DNA of 64,000 nucleotides from Pseudoxanthomonas sp. GM95 (GTDB taxonomy: Bacteria > Pseudomonadota > Gammaproteobacteria > Xanthomonadales > Xanthomonadaceae): NCBI RefSeq assembly GCF_900109775.1, contig NZ_FOAX01000003.1, positions 434,001 through 498,000 of the forward strand, given 5' to 3'. A program made the translations under genes and the position numbers. A model generated the notes under the pieces. That model worked only from the letters and a program-made list of their open reading frames with translations. It did not search any database and had not been told where the DNA came from. Positions within the stretch are counted from its first letter, which is position 1, and each line of letters starts with the position of its first letter. Shown in pieces: positions 5,157 through 58,604 of the stretch.

Positions 5157-6074
5157 ATGACGATGGACCAACTCCAGGCGATGCGCGCGTTCTCACGCGT
5201 GGTGGAGGCCGGCAGCTTCACCCGCGCGGCCGACTCGCTATCCATGCCCAATGCGACCCTGAGCAAGCTGGTGCGGGAACTTGAAACCCACCTCGGCGTC
5301 CGCCTGCTGCAGCGGACCACACGCCGCGTGACGGTCACTCCCGACGGCCAGGCCTACTACGCCAGCGCCATCCGCCTGCTGCGCGACCTGGAAGACATCG
5401 ATGGGCGCTTCAACGCACAGGGGCGCAAGCCGCGCGGGCACCTGCGCGTGGATATCGGCGGCTCGACCGCACGCGACGTCCTGATTCCGCTGCTGCCGGA
5501 TTTCATGGCGCGCTATCCGGATATCCGCTTCGACCTTGGCGTCTCCGACCGACCTGCCGACCTGATCGGCGACAACATCGACTGCGTGATCCGCGGTGGC
5601 GCGCCGCCGTCCTCGACGCTGGTCGCCCGCAGCCTGGGCCAGGCCGAGATGCTGACCTGCGCCAGCCCGGCCTACCTGAAGCGATTCGGCGTGCCGGCCT
5701 ATCCGGAGGAGCTGGCCAACGGCCACCGGCTCATCGCCTACCTCACCGCCCAACACGGCCGCGCCATGCCGTTCCGCTTCCAGCGTGATGCGCAGGTCTT
5801 CGAACTCAAGGCCGAGCGCTACGTCGGCATCAATGAGAGCAATGCCCACACCGCCGCCTGCGTGGCCGGACTCGGGCTGATCCAGACCTTCCGCTACGCC
5901 GCTGCGGAATCGCTGGCGCAAGGCACACTGGTGGAAGTACTGCAGCGCTGGCGACCGCCTCCGTTTCCCTTCCACGTGCTCTACCCACAGCACCGCCACG
6001 TCAGCCAACGGCTGCGGGTGTTCATCGACTGGCTGGTGGAATGCATGCCGCCGCGGCTTGCCGCCTCTGGTTAA
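5157..6074 (+). CDS. LysR-family transcriptional regulator
   Basis: A 305-residue protein with an N-terminal LysR winged helix-turn-helix ([19 protein letters not shown], then [20 protein letters not shown]) and a periplasmic-binding-like effector domain. It resembles the subgroup of LysR proteins that commonly sits beside SDR genes. The ATG at 5157 is used; one at 5163 (MDQLQ) is equally possible. Shared divergent promoter space with the SDR gene (4993-5156) suggests it regulates that gene and itself. The effector is unknown. Confidence 0.92.
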
Positions 6075-7657: not shown

Positions 7658-8377
7658 TTATCCCAAGAACCGCAAACCCACGCCCGGCTCCGTCGCCAGG
7701 TACTTCGGATGCAGCGCCGAATCGCCGAGCTTCACGCGCAGCTTGCCGACCAGCACGCGCAGGTAGTGGGTGTCCTCGGTGTGGGTCGGGCCCCAGACTT
7801 CGCGCAGCAGCTGCGGCTGGGTGATGACGCGGCCGGCGTTGGCGACCAGCAGCGAGAGCAGGGCGAATTCCTTGCGGGTCAGCACCACCGCCGAGCCGTC
7901 GAGGTGTACTTCGCGACGGACCAGGTCGATGTGCAGGTGGCCATCGTCGAACACCGGCGGTGCGCTGGCGTCAGCGACCACGTGCTGGCGCAGCAGGCCG
8001 CGCACGCGCGCCATCAGTTCCTGCGTGCCGAACGGCTTGGTGACGTAGTCATTCGCGCCGGCGTCGAGCGCGGCGACCTTCTCGTATTCGGCCGAGCGCA
8101 CGCTCAGCATCAGCACCGGCACCTGGCTCCATTGGCGCAGCTGGGCCAGTACTTCGTGCCCGTCCAGATCGGGCAGGCCGATGTCCAGGATCACCAAGTC
8201 GGCGCCATGCGTGGCCAAGGCTTCCAGGCCGGATTGCCCATCGGCCGCCTGCAGCACGATGTAGCCCTGCGCGCGCAGGGAGATGTCGAGGAAGCGGCGG
8301 ATCTGCGCTTCGTCATCGATCACCAGCACGCGCGCGGGCGTGGTGGCGTGGGCGTCAATCGGCGTCGTCGGCGTCAT
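7658..8377 (-). CDS. kdpE: KdpE, response regulator of potassium uptake
   Basis: A 239-residue OmpR-type response regulator: receiver domain with acidic pocket (VIDDEAQ), phospho-acceptor Asp65 in LVILDIGLPD, the conserved Lys in VTKPFG, and a C-terminal winged helix ending TEDTHYLRVLVGKLRVKLG. KdpE is phosphorylated by KdpD and activates kdpFABC under potassium limitation. Its start overlaps the end of kdpD by 23 nt, the usual coupled arrangement. Length and order match the family. Confidence 0.96.
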   Translation of the reverse strand: MTPTTPIDAHATTPARVLVIDDEAQIRRFLDISLRAQGYIVLQAADGQSGLEALATHGADLVILDIGLPDLDGHEVLAQLRQWSQVPVLMLSVRSAEYEKVAALDAGANDYVTKPFGTQELMARVRGLLRQHVVADASAPPVFDDGHLHIDLVRREVHLDGSAVVLTRKEFALLSLLVANAGRVITQPQLLREVWGPTHTEDTHYLRVLVGKLRVKLGDSALHPKYLATEPGVGLRFLG

Positions 8378-11018
8378 CGCGGGGCGGTGGCTGCAGCAGC
8401 GGCAAGGTGATGCGGATCAGCGTACCGCGTCCATCCTGACCGGGAAGTGCCTCCACGCTGCCGCCGTGCGCGCCGATCATGCCCTGGCAGATGGTCAGGC
8501 CCAGGCCGGTGCCGTGGCGCCCGCGATCGCCGCGCTCAACGGTGTAGAACATGTCGAAGATGCGCGCGCGCTCATCCTCGGGAATGCCCGGGCCGCTGTC
8601 GGCCACATCGATGCGCACGCCGCCTTCGGCCAGGCGCGCGGACACCTGCACCGGCTCGCCCGGCGGGGAGAACTTTGCGGCGTTTTCCAGCACGTTGAAC
8701 ACCGCCTGCTCGACCAGCGCCGGATGCACCCACATCATCGGCAGCTCAGGTGCCAGCGACACATCGACCCTGGCGCTGGCCTGGTAGCGCTGCAGCCGGC
8801 GCACGGCCGAACCGACCAGTTCGTCCACACCGATCCAGTCGCGGTTGAGGGTCAGGCCGGTGTGGCCCAGGCGGGTCATGTCGAGCAGGTTCTGGATGTA
8901 GCGGTCCAGCCGCTCGCCCTCGGTGAGGATGGTGTCCAGCAGCGCGCGGCGGTCTTCCGGCGGCATCGCCTCGGCGTAGCCGGACAGGCTGCTGGCCGAT
9001 CCGATCATCGCCGCCAGCGGCGAGCGCAGGTCGTGCGAGACCGAGGACAGCAGCGCCGAGCGCAGGCGCTCGGTTTCGCCGGTCATGCGCGCGTTTTCCA
9101 GGTCTCCGACCAGGCGCGTGCGCAGCGCGGCCTGGGCGATGTCCTCGACCATGGCTTCGGCCAGGCGGCGCTGCTCCAGGCCCAGGCGCGACTGGCGCGG
9201 CTCCATGCGCAGGCCGGCAGCGCCGATGGTGGTTTTTTCGCCAGCGGTCATCGGCACGAACCACCAGCCGGCACCGGCGAGCGTGTCGGTATGGCGTCCG
9301 CTGGGCGCGCCGTGGCGCTGGGTCCAGGCGGCAGCGGCCAGGTCCGTCTCGCCGAGCTTGGCCGAGGGCGCGGCTTCGACGTCATCGCCCACGCGCAGCC
9401 AGGCCTGTGCATCCAGCGCGCGCTCCATCGCCCGGCGGCCGGCCTGCAGCACCTGGCCCAAGTCGGCGGCGACGGCCAGTTCGCGCCCGAGTTGCTGCAT
9501 CGCCGTGGCGTGGCGATTGGCCGCGGCCAGCGCCAGCACCTGCATGCGCAGGCGCGAGGCGAGCCGCCCGGCCACCAGCGCGGCGGCCAGGAACAGGAAC
9601 ACCGTGACCACGCCCTGCTGCGCGGTGATGTGGAAGGTGAAGCGCGGCGCGATGAAGAAGAAGTTGTAGGCCAGGAAGCACAGCGTCGCGGTCAGCACCG
9701 CCGCGGCCATGCGCGTGCGGGCGGCGACCACCACGACCGCGACGATGAACACCATCGACAGGTCGTCCAGCCCGATCCAGCGCTGCGCCAGCCACGCCAG
9801 CCCGATCGCCGCAGCGGTGGCCAGCAGCGAGAAGCCCACATCGTGCCGACCCAGCAGCTTCGGCAGTGCCTGGATGCCGCGCCGCGCGCGGGCCCGCGCC
9901 AGCGGCGTGCTGACGATGTTGATCTCCAGGTGCGCGCCGCGCTGGATCAATTGCTGAGTCAGGGTGCGGTTGACCATCCGCGCCAGCGGTCGCTCGCGGG
10001 TGCGGCCCAGCACCAGCGTGGACACGCCATTGTGGCCGGCGTGATCCAGCAACGCCTCGGCGATGTTGGGGCCGTGCAGCAGTTCGGCCTCACCCCCGAG
10101 GCGACGCGCGAGCGCGAAGGCGCGATCGATCTCCTGCTGGGTATCGGCATCGAACGCGCGGCGCTGCACGGTCACCACTGTCCACGGCGCACCGCGGCGC
10201 TCGGCGATGCGTCGGGCGACGCGCACCAGGTATTCGCTCTGGCCGCCGCCATCAATGGCGACCAGCACGCGTCGGCGCACCGGCACGCCCGCCTGGCCGC
10301 GCGCGGTGGCGTCCTCGCGCAGGGCGTTGTCCACGTGTTCGGCCGCGGTCTGCATGGCCAGCTCGCGCAGCGCGGTGAGGTTGGACGGCGAGAAGAACGC
10401 CTGCAGCGCCTGGGTGGCCTGCTCGGGCAGGTAGACCTTGCCCTGCTGCAGCCGTTCGACCAGCTCGCGTGGCGGGATATCGACCAGCACGATGTCGTTG
10501 AGCCGGTCGAACACCGCATCGGGCACGGTCTCGGACACGCGCACGCCGGTGATCCGCAGGACCATGTCGTTGAGGCTCTCCAGGTGCTGGACGTTGACCG
10601 TGGTCCACACGTCGATACCGGCATCGAGCAGTTCGGCCACGTCCTGCCAGCGCCGCTCGTGGCGGCTGCCGGGCACGTTGCGATGGGCCAGTTCGTCCAC
10701 CAGCGCCAGCGCCGGCTTGCGCGCCAGCAGCGCGTCCAGGTCCATCTCCTCCAGCGTGCGCCCCTGGTAGTCGATGCGCTTGCGCGGCTGCTGCGGCAGG
10801 CCTTCGGTCAGCGCGGCGGTCTCGCTGCGGCCGTGGGTCTCGACGATGCCCACCACCAGGTCGGTCCCGCGCTTGAGCTGTTCACGCGCGCGGCTGAGCA
10901 TGGCGTAAGTCTTGCCCACGCCGGGCGCGGCACCGAGGAACACGGTGAGCTTGCCGCCGTGTTCGCGCGCGAGGCCTTCGATGAGGGCGTCGGCTTGGCG
11001 GGTGCGGGAGTCGGTCAT
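8355..11018 (-). CDS. kdpD: KdpD, potassium-sensing histidine kinase
   Basis: An 887-residue sensor kinase with the full KdpD layout. There is an N-terminal KdpD domain with Walker A motif GAAPGVGKT (about residues 29-37), a universal-stress-like domain (RVLVAIDGGGQSEYLVRVARR), a cluster of four membrane segments around residues 400-500, and a C-terminal kinase with H-box SSVSHDLRSPLAAMIG and ATP-binding GTGLGLTIC. The ATG at 11018 is chosen because family similarity starts at MTDSRTRQADALIEGL; the frame runs 27 codons further up without similarity. It lies 630 nt downstream of kdpC, separated by the structured repeat, so it may be expressed partly apart from kdpFABC. Confidence 0.96.
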   Translation of the reverse strand: MTDSRTRQADALIEGLAREHGGKLTVFLGAAPGVGKTYAMLSRAREQLKRGTDLVVGIVETHGRSETAALTEGLPQQPRKRIDYQGRTLEEMDLDALLARKPALALVDELAHRNVPGSRHERRWQDVAELLDAGIDVWTTVNVQHLESLNDMVLRITGVRVSETVPDAVFDRLNDIVLVDIPPRELVERLQQGKVYLPEQATQALQAFFSPSNLTALRELAMQTAAEHVDNALREDATARGQAGVPVRRRVLVAIDGGGQSEYLVRVARRIAERRGAPWTVVTVQRRAFDADTQQEIDRAFALARRLGGEAELLHGPNIAEALLDHAGHNGVSTLVLGRTRERPLARMVNRTLTQQLIQRGAHLEINIVSTPLARARARRGIQALPKLLGRHDVGFSLLATAAAIGLAWLAQRWIGLDDLSMVFIVAVVVVAARTRMAAAVLTATLCFLAYNFFFIAPRFTFHITAQQGVVTVFLFLAAALVAGRLASRLRMQVLALAAANRHATAMQQLGRELAVAADLGQVLQAGRRAMERALDAQAWLRVGDDVEAAPSAKLGETDLAAAAWTQRHGAPSGRHTDTLAGAGWWFVPMTAGEKTTIGAAGLRMEPRQSRLGLEQRRLAEAMVEDIAQAALRTRLVGDLENARMTGETERLRSALLSSVSHDLRSPLAAMIGSASSLSGYAEAMPPEDRRALLDTILTEGERLDRYIQNLLDMTRLGHTGLTLNRDWIGVDELVGSAVRRLQRYQASARVDVSLAPELPMMWVHPALVEQAVFNVLENAAKFSPPGEPVQVSARLAEGGVRIDVADSGPGIPEDERARIFDMFYTVERGDRGRHGTGLGLTICQGMIGAHGGSVEALPGQDGRGTLIRITLPLLQPPPRDDADDAD

Positions 11019-11647
11019 GGCTTGGATTTTGTGCTTTTTCTGCTGGGCTTTGTGGTTTGTTCTATGCGCTTTGCATCGCTTAGGTGCCAGAGCTTTCACG
11101 CCCTTCGGGCGCGAGTGACTTTTGTCGCGGCAAAAGTCACCAAAACCGCTACTCGCCGGACACTCGCCGCCGCTGCGCGGCGGTCCCCTGCGCTCCTCGA
11201 AGAAGACGGCACGGCGCCCAAACTCGCTTCGCTCAAACAGGGCGCCTCTACGGCCGTCTTCTTCTGCGGTGCTCGGCTCGCTTTACGGCTCAGACAGGGA
11301 AGCGAAGAGCAACCGCAACGGCGAGAGCAGGAGCACAGGCAGTTGCTCTGCTCTTGCTTCCAGATCCCCGTAAGGCACGGCGCAGCGGCGAGGTAAAGAC
11401 CCGCAGGGCGCGGCACACGGATGTGCGGCGTTTTTGGAAGGGACAGGGATGTTCCTTCCAAAAATCCCTTGCCGCGTAGCGGACCTGCGCGAAGCGCAGG
11501 CGTGCCGCCCGGGGCGTGTTGACCAGACATGCGTCTCTGGAAAAGCGCTTCTTTGCCCAGCTTTCTTTGCACGAGCAAAGAAAGTGGGTCGGGCGGCGAA
11601 GCCGCACGAAAGCCCTTGCTCTGAAAGAGAACGCCAGAAGCAACCGA
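11019..11647. other. kdpD-kdpC intergenic region, no gene
   Basis: This 629-nt gap inside the kdp operon is filled almost wholly by the structured repeat at 11089-11613. Frames open on both strands here are by-products of the hairpins: they have poor start contexts and parts of them recur only because the DNA repeats at 57.9 kb. I see no convincing promoter or terminator for kdpD. Confidence 0.7.
11089..11613 (+). repeat. structured hairpin repeat, copy 1 (between kdpC and kdpD)
   Basis: About 525 nt made of a chain of hairpins: 11099-11111, 11115-11140 (arms GTGACTTTTG and CAAAAGTCAC), 11167-11183, a nested one at 11199-11264 (outer arms GAAGAAGACGGC and GCCGTCTTCTTC, inner GGCGCCC and GGGCGCC), 11413-11426, 11431-11464 (15-bp stem with loop GGGA), 11484-11500, 11561-11584 (CTTTCTTTGC and GCAAAGAAAG) and 11593-11605. 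A second copy with the same order and orientation lies at 57907-58526. Six stems differ in sequence between copies but keep pairing. The tract 11281-11370 is not shared. Function unknown. Confidence 0.85.
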
Positions 11648-12241
11648 TCACTGCTTGGACGCAGCCGCCTCCAACGCCAAATTCAACTTCAACACGTTCA
11701 CCCGCGGCTGCCCGAACACGCCGAACTGCTTGCCAACCGTATTCGCCTGCACCAGCGCAGCCACGGCGTCCACGGACATCCCCCGCGCCCGCGCCACACG
11801 CGCAAGCTGTATGCGCGCCGCCGCCGGCGAAATCTCCGGATCCAACCCACCGCCAGACTGCGTCACCAGATCCGACGGCACCTGTGCAGGCGCGACGCCC
11901 TCGCGCGCAGCAATCTCGGCGATCGCCTCATCCACCCGCTTGATCGCGTCGGGATTGCTCCGCGCCTGGTTGCTGCCAGCCGCAGCCATCGGGTCGTACT
12001 TAGCGGCAGACGGCCGTGGATGAAACCACCGGTCACCCACGAACGGCTGCGCCACCAGCGACGAGCCGATCACGGTGTCGCCCTGCCGTAGCAAGCTGCC
12101 GGTGGCCTGCGTGGAAAACGCCGCGCGCGCCAGGGCGGTGCCGGCCAGGGAATACAGCAGGCCCATCACCAACAATGCGATGAGGGACAACACCAGGGCG
12201 GGGCGCCAGGCGGCGCGGTCTTGCAACGTTTGCGATGACAT
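11648..12241 (-). CDS. kdpC: KdpC, subunit of the high-affinity potassium ATPase
   Basis: A 197-residue single-span membrane protein: a hydrophobic segment right after the N-terminus (RPALVLSLIALLVMGLLYSLAG), then the family signatures GSSLVAQPFVGDRWFHPRPSA, the Asn-rich context around SGGGLDPEISPAAA and RVARARGMS. KdpC stabilises the KdpFABC complex and its nucleotide binding. The ATG at 12241 has AAAGG about 8 nt upstream and gives the usual length. An alternative ATG at 12301 overlaps the kdpB stop (ATGA) and would add 20 residues without family similarity; both starts are possible. Confidence 0.93.
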   Translation of the reverse strand: MSSQTLQDRAAWRPALVLSLIALLVMGLLYSLAGTALARAAFSTQATGSLLRQGDTVIGSSLVAQPFVGDRWFHPRPSAAKYDPMAAAGSNQARSNPDAIKRVDEAIAEIAAREGVAPAQVPSDLVTQSGGGLDPEISPAAARIQLARVARARGMSVDAVAALVQANTVGKQFGVFGQPRVNVLKLNLALEAAASKQ

Positions 12242-12297
12242 GGGAACACCTTTGAGCGCAGGGCGGGACATCAGGGGCTGGGCAAGGTCGATGCGGC

Positions 12298-14340
12298 TCA
12301 TGCGCCCACCGTCGCGGCCAGCAACAGATCGATCAGCTTGATCGCCACGAACGGCAGCGCCACGCCGCCGACGCCGTAGACCAGCATGTTCCGGCGCAGC
12401 AGCACCGTCGCGGTGGCCGGGCGGAAGCGCACGCCGCGCAGGGCCAGCGGAATCAACGCCGGGATGACCAGCGCGTTGAAGATCAACGCCGCCAGCACCG
12501 CGTTGCGGGGGCTGGACAGGTGCATCACGTTGAGCGCGGCCATCGATGGGATCGCGGCGGCGAACAGCGCCGGCAGGATCGCGAAGTACTTGGACACGTC
12601 GTTGGCCAGCGAGAACGTGGTCAGCGCGCCACGGGTGATGAGCTGCTGCTTGCCCACTTCGACCACCGCGAGCAGCTTGGCCGGGTCGCTGTCCAGGTCG
12701 ACCATGTTGCCGGCCTCCTTCGCCGCCTGGGTGCCGGAATTCATCGCCAGGCCGACGTCGGCCTGGGCCAGCGCGGGCGCATCGTTGGTACCGTCGCCGA
12801 CCATCGCCACCAGGCGCCCGCCGGCCTGTTCGGCGCGGATGCGCGCCAGCTTGTCCTCAGGTCTCGCCTCGGCGATGTAGTCGTCGACGCCGGCCTCGGC
12901 CGCGATGGCCGCGGCGGTGAGCGGGTTGTCGCCGGTGATCATCACCGTCTTGATGCCCATCTCGCGCAGGCGGGCGAACTTCTCCTTGATGCCGTGCTTG
13001 ACCACGTCGGAGAGCTCGACCACGCCCAGCACGTGGCGCCCTTCGGCCACCACCAGCGGCGTGGCGCCGCCGCGCGCGACCTGCTCGACGCGGCCAGCCA
13101 GTTCCGGCGGCACGCTGCCGCCCTGCTCGGCCACATAGCGGGCGATGGCATCGGTGGCACCCTTGCGGATCGCGCGGCCGGCCACGTCCACGCCGGACAT
13201 GCGGGTCTGCGCAGTGAACGCCAGGTACTCGGCCTTGTCCGGCTCGGTGGTGGTGCAGCCCTGCTCGCGCGCCAGGCGCACGATCGATTTACCTTCCGGC
13301 GTGGGATCGGCGAGCGAGGACAACAGCGCCGCCTCGCGCAGCTGCGCACCGTCGATGCCGGCCAGCGCGTGGAAGTGCGTGGCCTGGCGGTCGCCGTGGG
13401 TGATCGTGCCGGTCTTGTCGAGCAGCAGCACGTCGACGTCGCCCGCCACTTCGACCGCCTTGCCGGATTTGGCCAGCACGTTGGCGGCCAGCGCGCGGTT
13501 CATGCCGGCGATGCCGATGGCCGGCAGCAGGCCGCCGATGGTGGTCGGGATCAAACACACCAGCAGCGCGATTAGCAGCAACGGATCGACCTTGACCCCG
13601 ACGAAGGCGCCGATCACCGGCAGCGTGGCGACCACGACCAGGAAGGTCAGCGTCATCGCCGCCAGCAGCAGGGTCAGCGCGATCTCGTTGGGCGTCTTCT
13701 GGCGGTTGGCGCCTTCGACCAGCGCGATCATGCGGTCCAGGAAGCTGTGGCCCGGCTCGGCGGTGACCTTCACCAAGATCTCGTCGGTCAGCACTTTGGT
13801 GCCGCCGATCACGCCGCTGCGGTCGGTGCCGGCCTCGCGCAGCACCGGCGCGGATTCGCCAGTGACTGCGGCCTCGTTGATCGTGGCCAGGCCGCGCACG
13901 ATCTCGCCATCGGCCGGGATGAAATCGCCGGCCGAGACGATCACGTAGTCGCCCGGACGCAGGTCGCTGGCCGGCAGGCTGATCTCGGCCGCGCCGGGCA
14001 GCGCGGTCTCGACCTTGCGCGCCATCAGGTCCTGGCGGGCGCTGCGCAGCGAGGCGGCCTGGCCGCGGCCGCGGGCTTCGGCGATGGCCTCGGCGAAATT
14101 GCCGAACAGCACCGTCAGCAGCAGGATCGCGCTCACGGCCAGGCCGAAGCCCAGCGGCGCGTCGCCGCTCAGCGTGACCAGCAGGCTGACCAGGGTGCCG
14201 GCCATGACCACGGCCATGACGGGGCTTCGGATCAGCTTGGCGGGGTTGAGCTTGAGGACCGCATCGCGCAGGGCGGCGTTGATGGCCGCGCCATCGAGCA
14301 GGCGCTGTGGCGCGCGGTGGGAGTGGACTTGGGTGTTCAT
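12298..14340 (-). CDS. kdpB: KdpB, P-type ATPase catalytic subunit of potassium uptake
   Basis: A 680-residue P-type ATPase, the usual KdpB length. It has the phosphorylation motif DKTGTITHG near residue 308, TGES in the actuator domain (AVTGESAPV), the hinge motif [21 protein letters not shown] and several membrane segments. ATP hydrolysis here drives K+ import through KdpA. The start at 14340 (MNTQVHSHR) gives the family length; the frame stays open further upstream only through non-homologous sequence. It follows kdpA by 11 nt. Confidence 0.97.
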
Positions 14341-40877: not shown

Positions 40878-40949
40878 GGGGTTCAAAACACCAGGCCGGG
40901 AATGCGGACGAAACGAACGGCCCCGCACGCCGGCCAAGAGCCGTGCTGG

Positions 40950-41070
40950 GCTGCTCGTTGGTCTCGCCAACCAAAGTGGTTGCATCCGCCATGGCCGGTT
41001 CAGGCCAAGTATGTTGACGGCTACGCTCGCTCCGCAGTGCGGAAGAGCCGGCTACTCCCCAAGGAGGTTC
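40950..41070 (-). promoter_or_regulatory. yybP-ykoY manganese riboswitch in the mntP leader
   Basis: On the minus strand the leader reads CCTTGGGGAGTAGCC (41050-41064), then GTCAACATACTTG, then GGCGAGACCAAC (GAGACC at 40960-40965). These are the GGGGAGUAGC, CAACAUA and GAGACC conserved blocks of yybP-ykoY in the right order and spacing. The class binds Mn2+ and switches on Mn exporters. A TATACT at 41099-41104 could be the -10 box. No T-run follows, so translational control is more likely than termination. Confidence 0.9.
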
Positions 41071-57823: not shown

Positions 57824-58150
57824 TCGTTGTTTGATCAGCTTGGCGTTGTGGTTTTTCGCCTGCTTTTGATTGTTCGAACTCATCAAGCGAAGGCAGAAGC
57901 AATTGCAGAGCTTTCGCGCCGCTTCGCGGCACGAGTGACTTTTGTCGCAGCAAAAGTCACCAAAACCGCTTCTCGCCGGACGCACGCCGATGCTACGCAT
58001 CGGTGCCCTGCGCTCCTCGCAAAGCAGGGCACGGCGCCCAAACTCGCTTCGCTCAAACAGGGCGCCTCTTCGGCCCTGCTTTGCTCCGGTGCTCGGCGTG
58101 CTTTGACGGCTCGGTCAGGTAAAGCGAAAAGCCACAGCAAGCGCGAAGCC

Positions 58151-58180
58151 AAAGCCAAAGCCAAAGCCAAAGCCAAAGCC
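58151..58180 (+). repeat. AAAGCC hexamer tandem repeat
   Basis: Five perfect copies of AAAGCC, preceded by a near copy (GAAGCC), inside the variable middle of the structured repeat. Such a tract can change length by slippage. Confidence 0.9.
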
Positions 58181-58251
58181 GAAATGCTGCTCAGTACATC
58201 AAGCGAACCACAGCGCTTTCTTTCCAAAGGCAACGCACGCCTCCATCAAGG

Positions 58252-58302
58252 AGCTGCTGCTCTTAGCTGCTGCTCTTAGCTGCTGCTCTTAGCTGCTGCT
58301 CT
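58252..58302 (+). repeat. 13-mer tandem repeat
   Basis: The unit AGCTGCTGCTCTT is repeated 3.9 times without mismatch, also within the variable middle of the structured repeat. It is absent from copy 1, so it arose after the copies diverged. Confidence 0.9.
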
Positions 58303-58604
58303 AACACCCCATAAGGCACGGCGAAGGGCCGAGGATCAGACCCGCAGGGCGGCGTGCAGGGATGCACGTCGTTTTTCTGCGGGACATGGATGTCCCGTAG
58401 AAAAATCCCTCGACCCGTAGCGAACCCTCGCAAAGCGAGGGCGTGCCGCCTGGGGCGTGTTTCTTTGCCCAGCTTTCTTTGCACGAGCAAAGAAAGTGGG
58501 TCGGGCGGCGAAGCCGCACGAAAGCCGTTGTCGTTGCTTGGCTAACAAACCACCAACGGTCGCCTAGAAACCAAACCGCAACCGGCCCGAAGAGAGACCA
58601 GGCA

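Follow-up and report, generated by a model that had tools for sequence, protein, structure and literature searches.

Two copies of a long, hairpin-rich repeat lie in the 64,000-nucleotide stretch of Pseudoxanthomonas sp. GM95 analysed here (the window), and in several of their stems a change on one arm is answered on the other. What kind of element is this, which molecule folds, and how did the copies come to be where they are? According to the initial annotation, they belong to a family of intergenic elements that are large and structured and whose fold is under selection, either as RNA or as DNA. We built covariance models of the two halves of the repeat, module A (model R1) and module B (model R2), and used them to follow the element through its own genome, its family and its class.

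Two copies in the window

The repeat is real. The models place the copies at 11088-11617 and 57906-58529, alike in order and orientation, and the coordinates given at first (11089-11613 and 57907-58526) were correct to a few bases. Nine hairpins are borne out, four in module A (H1-H4) and five in module B (H5-H9). The stem changes cited as examples are exact; in one of them GAAGAAGACGGC/GCCGTCTTCTTC stands against GCAAAGCAGGGC/GCCCTGCTTTGC, with five pairs different and pairing kept in all. The claim of six hairpins with changes on both arms is upheld, with two minor corrections. The alignment of the copies has double changes in H3, the outer stem of H4, H5, H6 and H7, and by eye H1 is shorter on both arms; the corrections are a G/G mismatch in H5 of copy 1 and four one-sided changes in module B. 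According to the model alignment, 6 of 52 pairs differ in module A, all of them two-sided and none one-sided, and 11 of 49 differ in module B, seven two-sided and four one-sided. The parts of both copies and the genes beside copy 1 are listed in Table 1.

Table 1. Parts of the two window copies and genes next to copy 1 (window coordinates).
Feature	Position	Strand	Remarks
Copy 1, module A	11088..11298	+	head to tail on +; 215.4 bits to R1
Copy 1, left head CAGAGCTTTCA	11088..11098	+	terminal inverted repeat with GAAAGC 11608-11613; sequence read and alignment of 18 full copies
Copy 1, H1 hairpin CGCCC-TTC-GGGCG	11099..11111	+	sequence read; helix in covariation test
Copy 1, H2 hairpin GTGACTTTTG...GCAAAAGTCAC	11115..11140	+	sequence read; two helices in covariation test
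Copy 1, H3 hairpin CCGCCGC-TGC-GCGGCGG	11167..11183	+	sequence read; helix in covariation test
Copy 1, H4 long hairpin	11199..11264	+	outer stem GAAGAAGACGGC/GCCGTCTTCTTC, inner stem GGCGCCC/GGGCGCC, conserved loop AAACTCGCTTCGCTCAAACA
Copy 1, variable linker joining module tails	11299..11358	+	alignment of full copies
Copy 1, module B	11359..11617	+	tail to head on +; 251.4 bits to R2
Copy 1, H5 hairpin (one G/G mismatch)	11409..11430	+	sequence read, RNAalifold
Copy 1, H6 hairpin TTTTTGGAAGGGACA...TGTTCCTTCCAAAAA	11431..11464	+	sequence read, RNAalifold
Copy 1, H7 hairpin CCTGCGC-GAA-GCGCAGG	11484..11500	+	sequence read, RNAalifold
Copy 1, H8 hairpin CTTTCTTTGC-ACGA-GCAAAGAAAG	11561..11584	+	sequence read, RNAalifold
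Copy 1, H9 hairpin GCGGC-GAA-GCCGC	11593..11605	+	followed by right head GAAAGC 11608-11613; sequence read, RNAalifold
Copy 2, module A	57906..58119	+	219.6 bits to R1
Copy 2, linker with two tandem arrays	58120..58299	+	AAGCCA x 5.8 at 58146-58180; AGCTGCTGCTCTT x 3.9 at 58252-58302
Copy 2, module B	58300..58529	+	258.9 bits to R2
Copy 1 neighbour, sensor kinase gene, presumably kdpD-like (translation)	8355..11018	-	likely ATG 70 bp from element end
Copy 1 neighbour, presumably kdpC-like gene (translation)	11648..12301	-	stop 31 bp from element

Runs of short units that differ in length, like the arrays of copy 2 (a 6-nt unit x 5.8 and a 13-nt unit x 3.9), were also seen in the linkers of other copies and are possible typing markers. 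An optional block of about 29 nt, TGACCAGACATGCGTC...GAAAAGCGC, occurs in 12 of the 30 B modules of the genome and lies at 11520-11548 in the window.

A dispersed family of inverted module pairs

The window copies are almost certainly members of a dispersed family that is far larger than first noted. With copy 1 as query, at least 66 DNA matches were found in the genome (4.69 Mb, nine contigs). Separate profiles for each half, run on the fetched stretches, gave 44 A and 30 B modules at 41 sites after removal of three A and four B low-scoring cross-hits in which one half matched the other; these counts are lower bounds, because 40 of 100 first-look candidates were scored. A further B match (C6:325363-325577) lies outside the 41 sites. 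Full A-B elements occupy 25 sites, and the others hold six head-to-head A pairs, one tail-to-tail A pair, one tail-to-tail B pair, five single A and three single B modules.

The unit of the family is a multi-hairpin module of about 210-230 nt. A full element consists of a related A and B module, inverted and joined tail to tail, with the ends AGCTTTC/GAAAGCT facing outward. Each outer end forms a head, in which AGCTTTC is joined by two hairpins, one small and GC-rich, the other long. In an alignment of 18 full copies both ends are sharply defined (AGCTTTC at the left, GAAAGCT at the right), the loops are conserved and the stems vary. On the opposite strand the A model matches B modules over the whole length of the model, with about 30-35 bits where the modules are closer and lower scores in other species, and the B model likewise matches A modules on the opposite strand; the element is therefore an inverted pair of related modules.

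This arrangement is found well beyond the genus. Among 40 fetched regions of the wider class, picked for strong hits, 21 contain two modules tail to tail with their heads out and a gap below 160 bp, and one contains a head-to-head pair with one member cut off. A module scan of named loci used 43 of the 80 loci from a DNA pattern scan; A modules alone were counted, and two matches cut by the locus end (L175, L177) were left out of the group counts. Here 22 of 43 groups in 42 named loci are head-to-head pairs, mainly from Luteimonas and a Lysobacteraceae strain, and in the Lysobacter species shown the modules stand singly or in tandem, not as head-to-head pairs.

Six of the 44 A modules of the genome carry about 20 extra nt (alignment columns 76-96) that form a small hairpin, TCCCCAAGAGGGGATTGAAAA or near it (L008, L033 at 9614-9846, L036, L037 at 5242-5474, L038, L049). 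We take its end to resemble the ends of CRISPR repeats.

Stems covary and loops are conserved

The initial annotation had proposed a covariance-model test, which the element passed in its own genome, in the family and in the class. For the own-genome modules, RNAalifold predicted 52 pairs in the 44 A modules, 20 of them with double changes, and 68 pairs in the 30 B modules, 16 with double changes; some long-range module-B pairs were omitted from R2. Two wider alignments were made. The family set comprises 132 A modules (125 distinct) from Pseudoxanthomonas genomes and from named Xanthomonas, Luteimonas, Lysobacter, Pseudoxanthomonas and related records, and the distant set comprises 68 A modules from 24 genomes of 21 other families.

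Had the stems been no more paired than random sequence, the case for structure would have fallen. Pairing is far above shuffles in both sets: 94.4% of cells are paired in the distinct family modules versus 80.3% after shuffling, and 92.1% versus 61.9% in the distant set. Two-sided changes affect 876 cells in the family set (281 ± 14 in shuffles) and 844 in the distant set (248 ± 12 in shuffles). Of five measures applied to the distant set, further pair types were reached by 19 of 500 shuffles and the other four by none. When one arm was slid by 1-3 columns, pairing fell to 37-47% in both sets; the margins are flattered, because the alignments are fitted to the model and their rows are related, and shuffles and slides ignore the tree, yet no slide comes near. 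The stems thus covary, and the shuffle and slide controls support the view that the element is kept for its structure.

Resident copies are a different matter. In the orthologous kdp pair (G000, G010) 3 of 11 changed pairs are two-sided, fewer than among paralogues, which gives no support to selection on a resident copy. A test of stem avoidance between the two modules of one element gave an H4 similarity within the element of 0.64 versus 0.72 in the own genome (six pairs) and mixed results elsewhere, with 0.37 versus 0.35 in the distant set (21 pairs).

Distribution and database searches

With one full element as blast query, 54 of 100 relatives gave a match, counting the own genome. Model R1 detected the family in 38 of 149 genomes of its own taxonomic family (20 of 54 genera) and in 56 of 274 sampled gammaproteobacterial genomes (50 of 222 genera, 47 families counting its own); module A is present at E ≤0.001 in 46 class families besides its own. 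In a phylum sample of 299 genomes 19 gave a match, all of them in the same class; kinship was listed for a minority of the genomes without a match. The DNA pattern scan returned at least 88 stretches; among the matches listed, those named to genus belong to Xanthomonas, Lysobacter, Luteimonas and Pseudoxanthomonas, and the rest are family-level or metagenome-bin records. The family is real: its structured DNA repeats, arranged as inverted pairs, are abundant and extend across the class.

At blastn sensitivity, 72,556 plasmid records and 50,697 phage records had no match. No Rfam 15 family reached its gathering score in the window copies, and looser thresholds, applied to these copies and 20 class regions, gave sub-gathering matches only (best E 0.0022). 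We found no description of the family in the literature searched, whose scope excluded subscription journals, and the conserved loop in six literal spellings had no match in literature text. The stem-loop families listed for other genomes in the accessible part of PMC2267715, where Bordetella and Pseudomonas are covered, could overlap with it.

Position at gene ends

The elements lie at the ends of genes. With gene orientation taken from a codon-usage gene finder trained on window genes, 21 of the 41 own-genome sites fall between convergent genes, 20 between codirectional genes and none between divergent ones, and at 37 of them a facing stop codon is 22-110 bp from the element. With the same gene finder, the 43 groups in named loci were assigned to 22 codirectional, 11 convergent and 2 divergent gaps, and 8 were left unresolved; the background of gaps of at least 30 bp in long loci (same finder) is 264 codirectional, 81 divergent and 81 convergent.

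Occupancy and turnover at orthologous sites

One orthologous site is occupied differently in different species. In the kdpC-kdpD gap, which was scanned with both models at E 1e-4 in the loci of 29 of 37 congeners, modules are present in 4 of 30 genomes including the own one, in three arrangements: A>B> (own genome and G010), A>...<A (G007) and a head-to-head A pair (G015). The gaps of the 26 other congeners contained no module at this threshold in either model. Seventeen of these are short (13-331 bp), and nine consist of 651-1047 bp of sequence that neither model recognises, which makes the gap a general collecting place. In G007 the flanks that match those of the second window site are about 50 bp apart. 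Given the differing occupancy and arrangement of the kdpC-kdpD gap, on which the argument mainly rests, the elements turn over, and they appear to come and go between species.

Palindromes of the CGTCATTCCCGCG type lie in the kdpC-kdpD gaps of G017 and G004 (L055, L056) or within the G007 element (L054); the gap seems to collect repeats.

DNA or RNA

A structured RNA should tolerate G-U pairs on its own strand more readily than C-A mismatches. As a control we used 30 6S RNAs of the same class (MAFFT alignment, RNAalifold fold, 29 pairs), in which 44 G-U stand against 8 C-A cells and G-U makes up 29% of the departures that keep pairing. Module A behaves differently. For the helices from H2 on, the 68 distant modules have 30 G-U, 53 C-A and 691 alternative Watson-Crick cells, so that G-U accounts for 4% of alternative Watson-Crick plus G-U cells (0.04 versus 0.29 in the control). 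The 125 family modules likewise give 35 G-U, 97 C-A and 785 alternative Watson-Crick cells (G-U 4%), and refolding the distant set afresh by RNAalifold gives 10, 30 and 591 (G-U 2%). Wobble scarcity in module A is firm; module B is mixed. Its own-genome hairpins show about 22 G-U against 7 C-A cells in a hand tally, and the wider set, from which 23 of 79 rows were dropped as A modules on the other strand, has 24 G-U and 32 C-A in 53 distinct rows.

We interpret the scarcity of G-U in module A as a sign that DNA is what folds, or that arms are copied in DNA; it points to DNA over a classical RNA. As to strand, H4 of module A favours the tail-to-head direction (9 G-U to 66 C-A in the 125 family modules, 8 to 21 in the 68 distant ones). 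Counts of distinct stem alleles in the distant set are not significant (14 to 25, p 0.11; 32 to 39, p 0.48), and because of this and the mixed module B we make no claim of strand from wobble pairs.

These results bear directly on an RNA-level role, in which a transcribed fold in a 3' untranslated region or between operon genes would protect, terminate or process the mRNA. Such a role would suit sites just past stop codons and their near absence between divergent genes, as well as conserved loops and internal loops with variable stems and the G-U excess of own-genome module B. It is nevertheless unlikely. In the variable stems of module A wobble pairs are rare, unlike in the 6S control; their C-A excess from H2 on is the reverse of what a head-to-tail RNA would leave, all 52 pairs of the distant set together show no bias (82 G-U, 78 C-A, p 0.81), and the G-U excess of module B is missing from its wider set. 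Moreover, nine full elements between codirectional genes lie five with and four against the gene direction, with no orientation preference, and by eye no T-run follows the hairpins in either reading.

A proposed family of mobile folded DNA

We now turn to the explanation that we hold to be somewhat better than even, namely a family of non-autonomous mobile DNA elements. A putative trans-acting enzyme would recognise their hairpins in folded DNA, either single strands or cruciforms. Copies would appear at sites and vanish from them, and would persist where harm is small, shortly 3' of genes. The most likely form is a giant REPIN-like non-autonomous element, selected or maintained as folded DNA and moved by a putative mover; our confidence in the mechanism is moderate. 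That the elements spread by transposition, that the molecule which folds is DNA and that such an enzyme exists is what we infer; the family, its inverted-pair architecture, the covariation, the gene-end position and the differing occupancy of one orthologous site are observed. A bolder version is offered tentatively and is somewhat doubtful: the inherited unit of this class-wide mobile DNA may be a multi-hairpin DNA fold and not a sequence, with stems that drift as blocks yet stay Watson-Crick, fixed loops, and modules shuffled between inverted pairs by a putative fold-recognising enzyme.

Several results count against mobility. The analysis turned up no mover and no instance of transposition between close strains. 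In three widely spaced module pairs (L046, L264, L288) no gene of an autonomous parent was recognisable as a transposase from its translation; the genes of L046 are presumably argH-, proB- and proA-like, with a peptidase-like gene downstream. A target-site duplication was not seen in 25 full elements, where the longest shared flank word was 5.28 versus 5.28 in shuffles, a weak result as the ends are perhaps blurred by age. The flanks of orthologous sites were too diverged for a target site to be read.

Compensated stems could also arise without function, if the repeats were neutral apart from template switching or gene conversion, by which one arm is rewritten from its partner. Entire stems do change as blocks, wobble or single-sided intermediates are few, and the weak compensation in the orthologous kdp pair agrees with this. 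However, arm copying alone does not explain why the H4 loop core, the internal loops and the flanks are conserved across families, nor the presence of module A in the 46 other class families, and we judge it distinctly improbable.

A more specific proposal is a large REPIN or BIME mobilised by a RAYT (Y1 tyrosine transposase). The inverted-pair and head-to-head arrangements and the gene-end location resemble those of REPs, as far as the accessible parts of PMC3733652 and PMC2817692 describe them, and GTGG/GTAG letters adjoin H9. Nonetheless, the repeat beside the sole Y1 gene that the own genome yielded is another one, GTGGGAGCTGCTTC... The survey covered 35 of the 54 bearers that lie outside the family and 35 of the 218 non-bearers: a Y1 gene is present in 26 of the 35 element-bearing and 21 of the 35 element-less genomes, with nine bearers lacking one. 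We also scanned 31 Y1 loci, each from a different genome (20 of these genomes bear the element), and none has an A module within at most 1.5 kb. With other repeats at the Y1 gene of its own genome and a Y1 presence that does not track the element, RAYT mobilisation is disfavoured and has very little probability.

This sole Y1 gene of the own genome lies at L051 (C5:209207-212527), and on either side of it stand inverted pairs of GTG(G/A)GAGCTGCTT(C/T)AG..., a REP family distinct from the element.

Finally, such sequences are presumably often annotated as hypothetical proteins, and long frames are indeed present owing to GC richness, but a coding repeat can practically be dismissed: the invariant anchors of the 44 copies stand in three different phases to each other (24/14/6), and even the best frame is open in 33 of 44 copies and not in every one, leaving no conserved reading frame to explain the sequence, and neither Pfam (17 translated frames) nor NCBIfam (10 of them) had anything above cut-off.

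Comparison with known repeats

The preferred reading, a mobile folded DNA, invites comparison with repeats already described. In their accessible parts, PMC3733652 and PMC2817692 deal with REPs, RAYTs, BIMEs and transposases flanked by TIRs; the REPs that PMC2817692 reports from X. campestris are short clustered units, and the main text of PMC3733652, as far as accessible, does not contain the word Xanthomonas. The element shares with REPs, REPINs and BIMEs a dispersed chromosomal distribution of palindromic repeats, head-to-head and tail-to-tail inverted pairs, compensatory stem changes and an extragenic position between convergent or codirectional genes (2 of 35 resolved named-loci groups are divergent). 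However, a REP is a single palindrome of 20-40 nt, whereas the modules (214 and 231 model positions) contain four or five hairpins. An invariant GT(A/G)G head is also lacking: the letters beside H1 vary as part of the H2 stem (GTCAC, GTAGC and GGAAG on the reverse strand), and GTAG/GTGG beside H9 is common but not invariant. Nor was a linked RAYT seen at the Y1 loci, and unlike REPs the element is recognisable across many families.

With MITEs, the non-autonomous elements of DDE transposons, it has in common terminal inverted repeats (AGCTTTC/GAAAGCT), the absence of genes and dispersed copies. It differs from them in having no visible target duplication in the 25 elements and no autonomous parent recognised at the three wide module pairs, and in an interior that is strongly structured and conserved across families. 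Structured Rfam RNAs, represented by the 6S control, have similarly conserved loops and covarying stems, but the element is multicopy, has no strand preference, contains few G-U in module A and matches no Rfam 15 family at gathering score. The CGTC palindromes share only the kdpC-kdpD gap of relatives (L055, L056); they are short and simple (CGTCATTCCCGCG...) and unrelated in sequence.

Beyond the initial annotation, the analysis adds the inverted pair of related modules, the differing occupancy of one orthologous site, the gene-end position and the scarcity of G-U in module A. A half-kilobase multi-hairpin repeat in 47 sampled families, absent from Rfam and undescribed in the literature searched, would be a sizeable unannotated piece of the bacterial genome, and it raises the direct question of what moves it. 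Strong covariation statistics alone are no proof of an RNA, and covariation with next to no wobble pairs can serve to tell folding as DNA from folding as RNA.

Apart from the repeat, the window contains a manganese riboswitch (RF00080) at 40886-41067 on the minus strand, which scores 47.3 bits against a gathering score of 45.
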